DNA from: Allosalinactinospora lopnorensis
GTDB lineage: Bacteria; Actinomycetota; Actinomycetes; Streptosporangiales; Streptosporangiaceae
Length of the DNA: 64,000 nt
Direction: 5' to 3'
NCBI RefSeq assembly: GCF_000981225.1
Contig: NZ_LAJC01000004.1
Coordinates: forward strand, 1-64,000
Every line of letters begins with the position of its first letter. The stretch's first letter is position 1. The notes beneath the pieces were generated by a model, which did not search any database, was not told where the DNA came from, and saw only the letters and a list, made by a program, of their open reading frames with translations. A program made the translations under genes and the position numbers. Of the stretch, positions 46,630 through 47,673 are shown in pieces.

Positions 46630-46661
46630 TTGAACCCGGACCCCACTCCGACTTCTAACCT
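46630..46661 (+). promoter_or_regulatory. MerR-type promoter with a 20-bp spacer
   Basis: TTGAAC (46630-46635) and TAACCT (46656-46661) are separated by 20 bases. The spacer contains the dyad CGGA-N6-TCCG (46637-46650). Overlong spacers with a central dyad are the hallmark of promoters twisted open by MerR-family activators. The ATG at 46668 lies about seven bases past the -10, so the message is probably leaderless and self-regulated. Confidence 0.6.
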
Positions 46662-46667
46662 GAATTC

Positions 46668-47102
46668 ATGCAGACTGGTCAGGTCGCCGAGACCTACACC
46701 GTCGCCCAGGTCGCCGCCCGGGCAGGGGTTGGCCCTGACACGGTCCGGTACTACGAGCGGACGGGGTTGCTGCCCGCCCCCGCCCGTACGTCCGGGGACC
46801 ACCGCCGCTACGGCGAGGCCGCGGTGGAACGGCTGCGGTTCATCCGCGGGACGCAGCGGTTGGGGCTGCGGCTGGCCGAGATCCGGGAGCTGCTGGTCCT
46901 GCGCGACACCGGGGTGTGCCCGTGCGAACCGGCCGAAGGGCTGCTACGCCGGCGTATCGCCGAGATCGACACTGAGGTCGAGCGGCTGTCCGCGCTGCGC
47001 GCGGAGCTGGTGACCACGTTGGAGCAGCTCGGCCCGGACTGTCCGGCTCCCATCTCCGAAACCTGGTGCCCGCCCGACCGCGCAGACACCGGAGGGAGGT
47101 GA
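46668..47102 (+). CDS. MerR-family metal-responsive regulator
   Basis: A 144-residue MerR regulator. The winged helix (YTVAQVAARAGVGPDTVRYYERTGLL and RRYGEAAVERLRFIRGTQRLGLRLAEIRELL) is followed by a dimerisation helix. Cysteines at 84 and 86 (TGVCPCEPAEGLLRRR) sit where metal sensors of this family bind their ion, and further Cys at 125 and 134 (PDCPAPISETWCPP) could complete a site. The stop codon TGA at 47100-47102 is embedded in the GGAGGGAGGTGA ribosome-binding site of the Cys-rich micro-ORF that follows. Both genes probably share the promoter at 46630. Which metal is sensed is unknown; CPC-type sites suggest soft or borderline ions. Confidence 0.88.
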   Translation: MQTGQVAETYTVAQVAARAGVGPDTVRYYERTGLLPAPARTSGDHRRYGEAAVERLRFIRGTQRLGLRLAEIRELLVLRDTGVCPCEPAEGLLRRRIAEIDTEVERLSALRAELVTTLEQLGPDCPAPISETWCPPDRADTGGR

Positions 47103-47107
47103 CCGTC

Positions 47108-47167
47108 ATGTGTCCTTGCTGCTCCGACCCCGGCTGCGAGTGCTGCGACCGCTGTGACTGCTGCTGA
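47108..47167 (+). CDS. 19-residue cysteine-rich peptide, candidate micro-metallothionein
   Basis: The frame encodes MCPCCSDPGCECCDRCDCC and then TGA: nine cysteines in 19 residues, in CxCC, CxCC and CxxCxCC arrangements, with three Asp and one Glu. GGAGGGAGGTGA lies five bases before the ATG, one of the strongest ribosome-binding sites in the window, and overlaps the stop of the MerR gene. This indicates coupled translation. A strong hairpin (47181-47230) ends the unit. The spacing and richness of cysteines resemble metallothioneins but it is far shorter than the usual bacterial ones. I do not recognise a named family. A metal buffer, a carrier or a co-sensor for MerR are all possible. Confidence 0.7.
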   Translation: MCPCCSDPGCECCDRCDCC

Positions 47168-47180
47168 CTCCGCTGAACCC

Positions 47181-47230
47181 GTGTTCCCGGGGCCGCCGCC
47201 CGGACCGGATCCGGGCGGCGCCGGGAACAC
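47181..47230. terminator. bidirectional hairpin between the merR unit and the CBS gene
   Basis: Arms GTGTTCCCGG..CCGCCGCCCGGA and TCCGGGCGGC.CCGGGAACAC with a short CCGGA loop make a stem of over 20 bp. It sits 13 bases after the micro-ORF stop and nine bases after the convergent CBS gene stop, so it can end both transcripts. Confidence 0.8.
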
Positions 47231-47238
47231 CCCGGTCG

Positions 47239-47673
47239 TCAGGACACGCGGTCCGCGGGCCCGGACTTTATGGTCTCGATGAACTCGCCCAGCTTGTCCT
47301 CGGGCAGGTGCTGCGCGAGATCGGCCTCGCTGATCATGCCTACCAACTGGTGCTCCCGGATCACCGGCAGGCGCTTGATCCTATGCTGCTTCATCTGCCG
47401 GAGCACGTCTTCGATGTCGGCGTCCGCGTCGACATAGAACGGTTTGCCGGCCGCCATCTCGGAGACGCGGCACTGCGCCGGGTCCTTGTCCTCGGCCAGG
47501 CACTTGATCACGATGTCGCGGTCAGTGAGGATCCCGTGCAGCCTCCTGTCCTCCCCGCAGATGGGCAGGGCACCTACTCCAAGATCGCGCATCCTGCGCG
47601 CGGCCTGGTTCACGGTCTCGTTCTCGTCGGCGCACTCGGCGCCCTTGTGCATGATCTGCGCCGCACTGGTCAT
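47239..47673 (-). CDS. tandem CBS-domain protein
   Basis: A 144-residue protein of two CBS domains (MTSAAQIMHKGAECADENETVNQAARRMRDLGVGALPICG...HGILTDRDIVIKCLAE, then VSEMAAGKPFYVDADADIEDVLRQMKQHRIKRLPVI...GMISEADLAQHL). Such stand-alone CBS pairs bind adenine nucleotides in a Bateman module and act as energy or stress sensors. Two cysteines (CADENE, CGEDRR) lie in the first domain. ATG 47673 has AAGGGGGGAG upstream. It is read in the same direction as the PKS and follows its last gene by 135 bp; functional linkage is doubtful. Confidence 0.88.
   Translation of the reverse strand: MTSAAQIMHKGAECADENETVNQAARRMRDLGVGALPICGEDRRLHGILTDRDIVIKCLAEDKDPAQCRVSEMAAGKPFYVDADADIEDVLRQMKQHRIKRLPVIREHQLVGMISEADLAQHLPEDKLGEFIETIKSGPADRVS

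Follow-up and report, generated by a model that had tools for sequence, protein, structure and literature searches.

A MerR-type regulator paired with a tiny cysteine-rich peptide in Actinomycetota: a putative one-operator metal-buffering circuit

In the actinomycete Allosalinactinospora lopnorensis, a MerR-family gene is followed at once by an open reading frame for a peptide in which 9 of the 19 residues are cysteine, an arrangement that raises the question of whether so short a peptide could be the dedicated partner of a metal-responsive regulator. The window, as we use the term here, is the whole stretch of DNA that was analyzed, 64,000 nucleotides in length. An earlier note on this DNA had described a MerR gene with a CPC motif, a 19-residue, nine-cysteine ORF five bases past its stop, a strong Shine-Dalgarno sequence across that stop and a hairpin closing the operon. 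Direct reading of the sequence bore out all four of these elements and added a promoter/operator that is absent from the note's description:

46630-46661, + strand: MerR-type promoter/operator; -35 TTGAAC, 20-bp spacer, -10 TAACCT, with an imperfect dyad CGGA-N6-TCCG in the spacer
46668-47102, + strand: merR, a 144-aa MerR-family regulator with Cys84 and Cys86 (CPC), Cys125 and Cys134; stop TGA at 47100-47102
47095-47102, + strand: strong Shine-Dalgarno sequence GGAGGTGA, overlapping the merR stop codon
47108-47167, + strand: micro-ORF MCPCCSDPGCECCDRCDCC, 19 aa with 9 Cys; ATG at 47108, TGA at 47165-47167; proposed micro-metallothionein
47181-47230, + strand: 50-nt terminator-like hairpin behind the micro-ORF, interrupted by a single 3-nt bulge and lacking a U-tract; folding z = -3.25
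47239-47673, - strand: CBS-domain gene converging on the merR/micro-ORF pair from downstream

The gap between the merR stop and the micro-ORF start is 5 nt, the merR start codon lies 6 nt behind the -10 element, from which the window merR is probably leaderless, and hrpA stands upstream of merR in divergent orientation.

Profile searches against Pfam recovered MerR_1 (PF13411, E 2.6e-19), MerR (PF00376, E 2.1e-14) and MerR-DNA-bind (PF09278, E 3.2e-17) in the window regulator, all above the gathering score and together accounting for the HTH and effector domains. Among the NCBIfam profiles, the highest scores came from mercury MerR and CadR-PbrR, with TIGR02051 as the best match at 94.2 bits against a cut-off of 150.85; no equivalog cut-off of the MerR, CadR-PbrR, ZntR and CueR classes was reached, and the SoxR score also fell below its cut-off. 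The top solved chains were 4ua1 (labelled 'Regulatory protein', which we take to be a Bacillus MerR), CadR and a mercuric resistance regulator, and C86 aligns with the Cys column of the CadR and MerR chains, whose aligned Cys columns are presumably metal ligands. In MerR proteins, the metal site sits between two subunits. In an alignment of 23 sequences, the window included, C84, C86 and C125 are invariant and C134 is present in at least 90%; the three loci in which C134 is replaced (L002, L081 and L190) all still carry the micro-ORF. The subfamily thus shares with MerR, CadR, PbrR and ZntR the HTH and effector domains, a long-spacer promoter with a dyad and Cys in the ligand columns, but differs from them in the motifs RDTGVCPCEPAE and CPDPxPGxWCPP, in an extra Cys at -2 (CPC) and in its partner, a micropeptide rather than a pump or reductase.

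This MerR subfamily is sparse. With the best 10-12 first-look candidates per genome scored, 8 of 341 genomes of the family had a match of at least 197 bits, the next among the matches listed being a damaged member (L081) at 127; the class sample had a match of at least 204 in 6 of its 394 genomes, the next among the matches listed scoring 120. On these scores, the profile appears to separate the subfamily from other MerRs. The resulting set comprised 37 loci, 14 from whole genomes, one of which is the window, plus 23 from named records among the matches listed, the latter from Amycolatopsis, Saccharothrix, Lentzea, Geodermatophilus, Glycomyces, Ornithinimicrobium, Thermocrispum and others, with several metagenome assemblies among them. 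Several of the 37 loci are close kin (five are from Amycolatopsis), so the counts given below overstate the number of independent events. Where one gene was represented by duplicate loci, these (L073, L074, L076, L083, L086, L092, L093, L096 and L113) were excluded from the conservation counts, and the micro-ORF starts in L075, L099 and L151 were set by hand.

The earlier note had staked its case on conservation of the short ORF behind orthologous merR genes, and it proved to be kept in 36 of the 37 loci: in 35, a distinct Cys-rich ORF of 12-32 aa follows merR, and in L098 the Cys-rich stretch lies in frame with merR, as a fusion or with an internal ATG start. The sole locus without a Cys-rich ORF behind merR is L046. 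Among paralogous MerR genes, one of 76 had such an ORF, and since that one is the damaged member L081 the figure becomes 0 of 75, counted in the same way as for members, by a looser ORF criterion of 10-45 aa with at least 4 Cys and at least 20% Cys, and with any unreadable loci scoring negative. A sequence resembling a Shine-Dalgarno precedes 31 of the 35 catalogued micro-ORFs, and the 70-nt stretches behind the 35 have a mean folding z of -1.7, with values below -1 in 22. The 35 peptides consist of 37% Cys, 16% Asp and 11% Gly, with W, Y and F together at about 1%; between the cysteines, the filler is Asp, Gly, Ser, Glu, Thr and Pro, and the sequences are otherwise divergent. Counting a plasmid copy (L190), 30 of 36 peptides end in Cys-Cys (shuffled mean 4.8) and 18 of 36 contain CCx[DNS]xxC (5.0 in shuffles), in tests formulated after the peptides had been inspected. 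A profile scan covering six longer relatives of 23-32 aa, with a lower length limit that excludes the window's 19-aa peptide, found no match in Pfam and NCBIfam up to E 1, metallothioneins included. ORFs so short are generally skipped by gene callers; the earlier note's suggestion that this one would be fits a single case, the Rhodococcus plasmid pGA1, which has the standard form with operator (by eye) and micro-ORF MHDCCEDPMCPPELCGCGC and no listed CDS for it, in a gene table that is stated to be incomplete. We also observed two loci, L081 and L195, in which merR is damaged (by an internal stop and an internal loss, respectively) while an operator-like element and an intact Cys-rich ORF persist, which, barring assembly errors, looks as though the peptide can outlast its sensor.

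The promoter is conserved to a similar extent. In 36 of the 37 loci, TTGANN-N20-TANNNT with an internal dyad stands directly before merR, with the same 20-bp spacer, in agreement with the supposition that one MerR-type promoter serves both sensor and peptide; in the window, the dyad is weak (4 of 8 pairs). In 34 of these 36 loci an in-frame start codon lies 6-7 nt past the -10, and in L098 it lies 8 nt past it; further candidate merR starts lie downstream in some loci, and no in-frame start codon was found behind the -10 in the damaged L081. Start codons at this distance suggest a leaderless merR message made from MerR's own operator. Searched with zero mismatches, the operator pattern occurs exactly once in 10 of the 13 member genomes, and with one mismatch exactly once in 12 of the 13, always at merR, in a pattern that is blind to weaker or differently spaced sites and with 3 of the 13 assemblies under 85% complete. 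The window's genome has a single copy at either setting, the thirteenth genome (G496) reads TTGAGG at its site, and reversed-pattern controls gave 0 hits. Across 338 genomes of the family, 13 sites were found: the 8 intact members account for 8 and the damaged merR of G361, whose Cys-rich ORF is intact, for 1, and the other 4 lie beside other MerR kinds. Because the operator occurs once per genome and at merR (12 of 13), the peptide is the only evident target, and at the resolution of the pattern used the operon would be the whole regulon. In two loci (L192 and L194), a site matching the operator pattern accompanies a different MerR and faces a gene of 144-155 aa that looks membrane-protein-like by eye.

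The exceptional locus L046, from Mycobacterium sp. ENV421, has its operator reversed, towards a divergent P-type ATPase. This protein scores above the heavy-metal thresholds TIGR01525 and TIGR01512 and, by a small margin, above TIGR01511 for copper, thereby exceeding both the cadmium-family and the copper threshold, and by these profiles the tested L046 pump appears to be a heavy-metal P1B ATPase. Of 130 plasmid records matching in the plasmid search, three were examined. The Mycobacterium abscessus plasmid pGD22-1 has the same layout as L046 with an identical MerR and no micro-ORF, so the two count as one example. A second example is provided by the Streptomyces plasmid pFRL4, which likewise has no micro-ORF and an operator directed towards an annotated cation-translocating P-type ATPase with the stretch ACSCSFAMATP in common with that of L046. 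The ATPase genes under the flipped operator are:

L046, 1857-3872, - strand: P-type ATPase with ACSCSFAMATP (CSC)
L188, 1814-3823, - strand: P-type ATPase with ACSCSFAMATP (CSC)

P-type ATPases usually have CPC at the CSC position. The N-terminal regions of the L046 and L188 ATPases hold short Cys clusters, CGGCGDSC and CGCDDAC, reminiscent of the micropeptides. In a tree with 29 paralogs chosen by hand, L081 left out and few alignment columns, the L046 and pFRL4 regulators cluster together and are nested, with moderate support, among micro-ORF carriers. This nesting makes a change from peptide to pump the likelier direction. The swap argues that the inducer may be a soft heavy metal, and the presence of P-type ATPases in the rewired relatives suggests that the peptide acts as an effector.

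A sister MerR clade, marked by CPCGHT or a near variant of this motif, emerged from a phylum sample of 396 genomes, in which the best 10-12 first-look candidates of each were scored; L171 and L173, which have neither CPC nor operator, were excluded from it. A Cys-rich micro-ORF or an in-frame joining occurs in 13 of its 20 loci, with two tandem micro-ORFs each in L154, L158 and L160 and the Cys-rich stretch in frame with merR in L161 and L168. Three of the 20 loci have longer Cys-rich proteins behind merR (L164, 98 aa; L167, 81 aa; L170, 63 aa). These proteins contain CGCG/CACGC clusters and match no Pfam or NCBIfam family above cut-off, and those of L164 and L170 have what looks by eye like a coiled-coil stretch. 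In L157 and L172, a thioredoxin-like gene (VFTAxCPVCEPA) lies directly behind merR under a similar operator, and in L155 and L156 no Cys-rich ORF was detected by the criteria used. Most loci of the clade have the same operator by eye, clearest as CTTGACCTTGGAG...CTCCAAGG, from which L164, L167 and L170 deviate.

Taken with the conservation, the gene order, the Shine-Dalgarno/stop overlap, the operator, the in-frame joining and the ATPase replacement lead us to propose, with a probability of roughly three in four, an autoregulated one-operator soft-metal circuit of two genes whose effector is a putative micro-metallothionein. Activation through promoter remodeling is established for the MerR family. 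In the proposed circuit, MerR would bind the 20-bp spacer of its own promoter, and a thiophilic metal (of the Zn/Cd/Pb/Hg or the Cu/Ag class) would fill a Cys site formed by C86 with C84, C125 and C134. The metal-loaded regulator would remodel the promoter so that RNA polymerase fires, giving a transcript that begins at or beside the merR start codon and would be translated leaderlessly. Expression of the peptide would follow when ribosomes ending merR reinitiate at the strong Shine-Dalgarno sequence, and the 19-residue Cys-rich product would bind and chelate cytosolic metal until free metal falls and the regulator switches off, which would close the feedback loop.

Among the alternatives, the one that survives best holds that the peptide acts mainly on MerR itself, stripping metal from it or delivering metal to it and so setting threshold and reset time, with no bulk detoxification. 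The regular pairing, an operator whose only evident target is its own operon, the in-frame joining in L098 and in the sister-clade loci L161 and L168, and a size that limits chelating capacity would all fit such a role. However, the rewired relatives have a P-type ATPase instead of the peptide, as would be expected of an effector, the sister clade can hold two tandem peptides or longer Cys-rich proteins, and the in-frame cases may be separate ORFs that begin at an internal ATG; we therefore consider this role improbable, though with some standing. Considerably less probable is a sensor that answers oxidants or reactive thiol agents, with the peptide as a thiol or redox buffer. The MerR family does include redox sensors, and a thioredoxin-like gene takes the peptide's place in two sister-clade loci, but the cysteines at the MerR/CadR ligand columns and the P-type ATPases of the rewired relatives, of heavy-metal type where tested, speak against it.

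The genomic neighborhood bears on a regulatory role for the ORF. We considered a conserved resistance neighborhood and did not see one among the 15 largest neighbor clusters listed, none of which contains a gene at a constant place across genera. Several of these clusters reflect Amycolatopsis or Glycomyces synteny, one of 10 loci was read as an antisense artefact over merR, and in two others, one of 7 loci that holds a response-regulator protein and one of 5 (L045, L050, L054, L055 and L060), the members lie at differing places or strands; flanks of the whole-genome loci extended about 1.5 kb, and ten neighbor proteins were scanned with Pfam. In 23 of the 37 loci the first downstream ORF runs in the opposite direction, as assigned by a crude caller that gave the wrong strand behind the window and was ambiguous in L151. 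A Cys-responsive ORF, in which the speed of translation through Cys codons would govern attenuation of a downstream gene, would account for a hairpin behind a short ORF that is rich in Cys codons, and such attenuators have been reported in actinobacteria, as the polycysteine leaderless uORFs of mycobacteria (Canestrari et al. 2020, as cited in PMC9031893). The likeness to those attenuators extends to tiny Cys-rich ORFs in actinobacteria and leaderless transcripts. Those uORFs, as presented there, lead their transcript and control what follows; unlike them, the micro-ORF here follows merR with its own Shine-Dalgarno sequence, and the gene that appears leaderless is merR. In the window, the micro-ORF is followed by a convergent gene, the listed clusters and the strand counts given above offer no regular downstream target, residues other than Cys recur around CCxDPxC, and the ORF sometimes shares the reading frame of merR, so that we hold attenuation to be very unlikely. 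Despite its shortness and the TGC runs of GC-rich DNA, a chance ORF has next to no probability and is rejected on the paralog comparison (36 of 37 members despite sequence divergence, against 0 of 75), on its intactness behind two damaged merR genes, and on 5000 dinucleotide-preserving shuffles of the 161 nt at 47055-47215, of which 20 gave an ORF of 10-45 aa with at least 4 Cys and at least 20% Cys, and none (0/5000) one with at least 9 Cys and at least 40% Cys.

The proposed micro-metallothionein circuit has partial counterparts in several known systems. MerR activators paired with a small thiol metal-binding protein include GolS-GolB, CupR-CupA and CueR-CopZ. Chaperones of the GolB, CupA and CopZ type are folded domains, and the regulons include P-type ATPases. 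The present pair resembles these in joining a MerR activator to a small thiol partner, and differs in that a second operator was not found in 12 of 13 genomes. Among bacterial metallothioneins, SmtA/BmtA and mycobacterial MymT measure about 50-56 aa, and the known ones are under ArsR/SmtB- or RicR-type control; we know of none as short as these peptides. The likeness lies in Cys density, CxC and CC clusters, few aromatics and an acidic/Gly filler, but compared with SmtA/BmtA and MymT the peptides here have 12-32 aa, no profile match (six tested) and a MerR-type regulator in the operon. Metallothioneins had been predicted in silico in actinobacteria (Schmidt et al. 2010, as cited in PMC4531530), a study that, to judge by its title, concerns the same phylum and the same idea of unrecognized Cys-rich metal binders, and PMC4531530, where it is cited, links unrecognized Cys-rich actinobacterial proteins to ChrA transporters. 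Among the matches listed in the open-licence full-text literature, a scope that most subscription journals lie outside, no paper on such a MerR-micropeptide pair was found. MerR-controlled metal resistance and metallothioneins are already known kinds; what appears new, within those open-licence matches, is a MerR with a Cys-rich peptide of 12-32 residues as its only evident partner.

The recurrence of the pair with its own switch in many actinobacteria points to an unannotated family of tiny, putatively metal-binding peptides, a class that may be missing from annotation. On sequence grounds, we find it fairly likely that a micro-metallothionein family of 12-32 aa exists across Actinomycetota with a dedicated, autoregulating MerR and a one-operator regulon, that the sensor was rewired to an efflux ATPase on mobile elements, and that a look-alike occurs beside ArsR. 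If so, an entire detoxification effector would be one micropeptide, and sensor, promoter, coupling and effector, in about 540 bp and with no other target found, could serve as a minimal model of metal buffering and as a small building block for metal biosensors. Peptide and ATPase have been exchanged naturally behind the same sensor, which would also allow buffering and efflux to be compared directly, and the combination of MerR subfamily, operator and Cys-rich tail ORF provides a search rule for more.

Cys-rich micro-ORFs were also seen free-standing. In L130-L134 and L136-L139, these take forms such as MDCCDDQTTDCCDTGCC (positions 1514-1567 with the locus oriented to the strand of the micro-ORF), and in most of these loci a short ORF of about 64 aa precedes the peptide. 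By eye, several loci have a TTCGA...TCGAA dyad upstream, an ArsR-type gene is divergent from the peptide in L130, L131, L136 and L139 among the loci examined, and the setting is of arsenic type, L131 having an ArsC-like gene and L130 a flavoprotein-like one. A further free-standing peptide, MDDCCEPECCESSSCC, lies at 5492-5555 of contig C476 in genome G456, and another, MEDCCDDLQGCETGCC, on the reverse strand of L125 (339-389), behind a flavoprotein-like gene and with a ChrA-like gene farther on (by eye).
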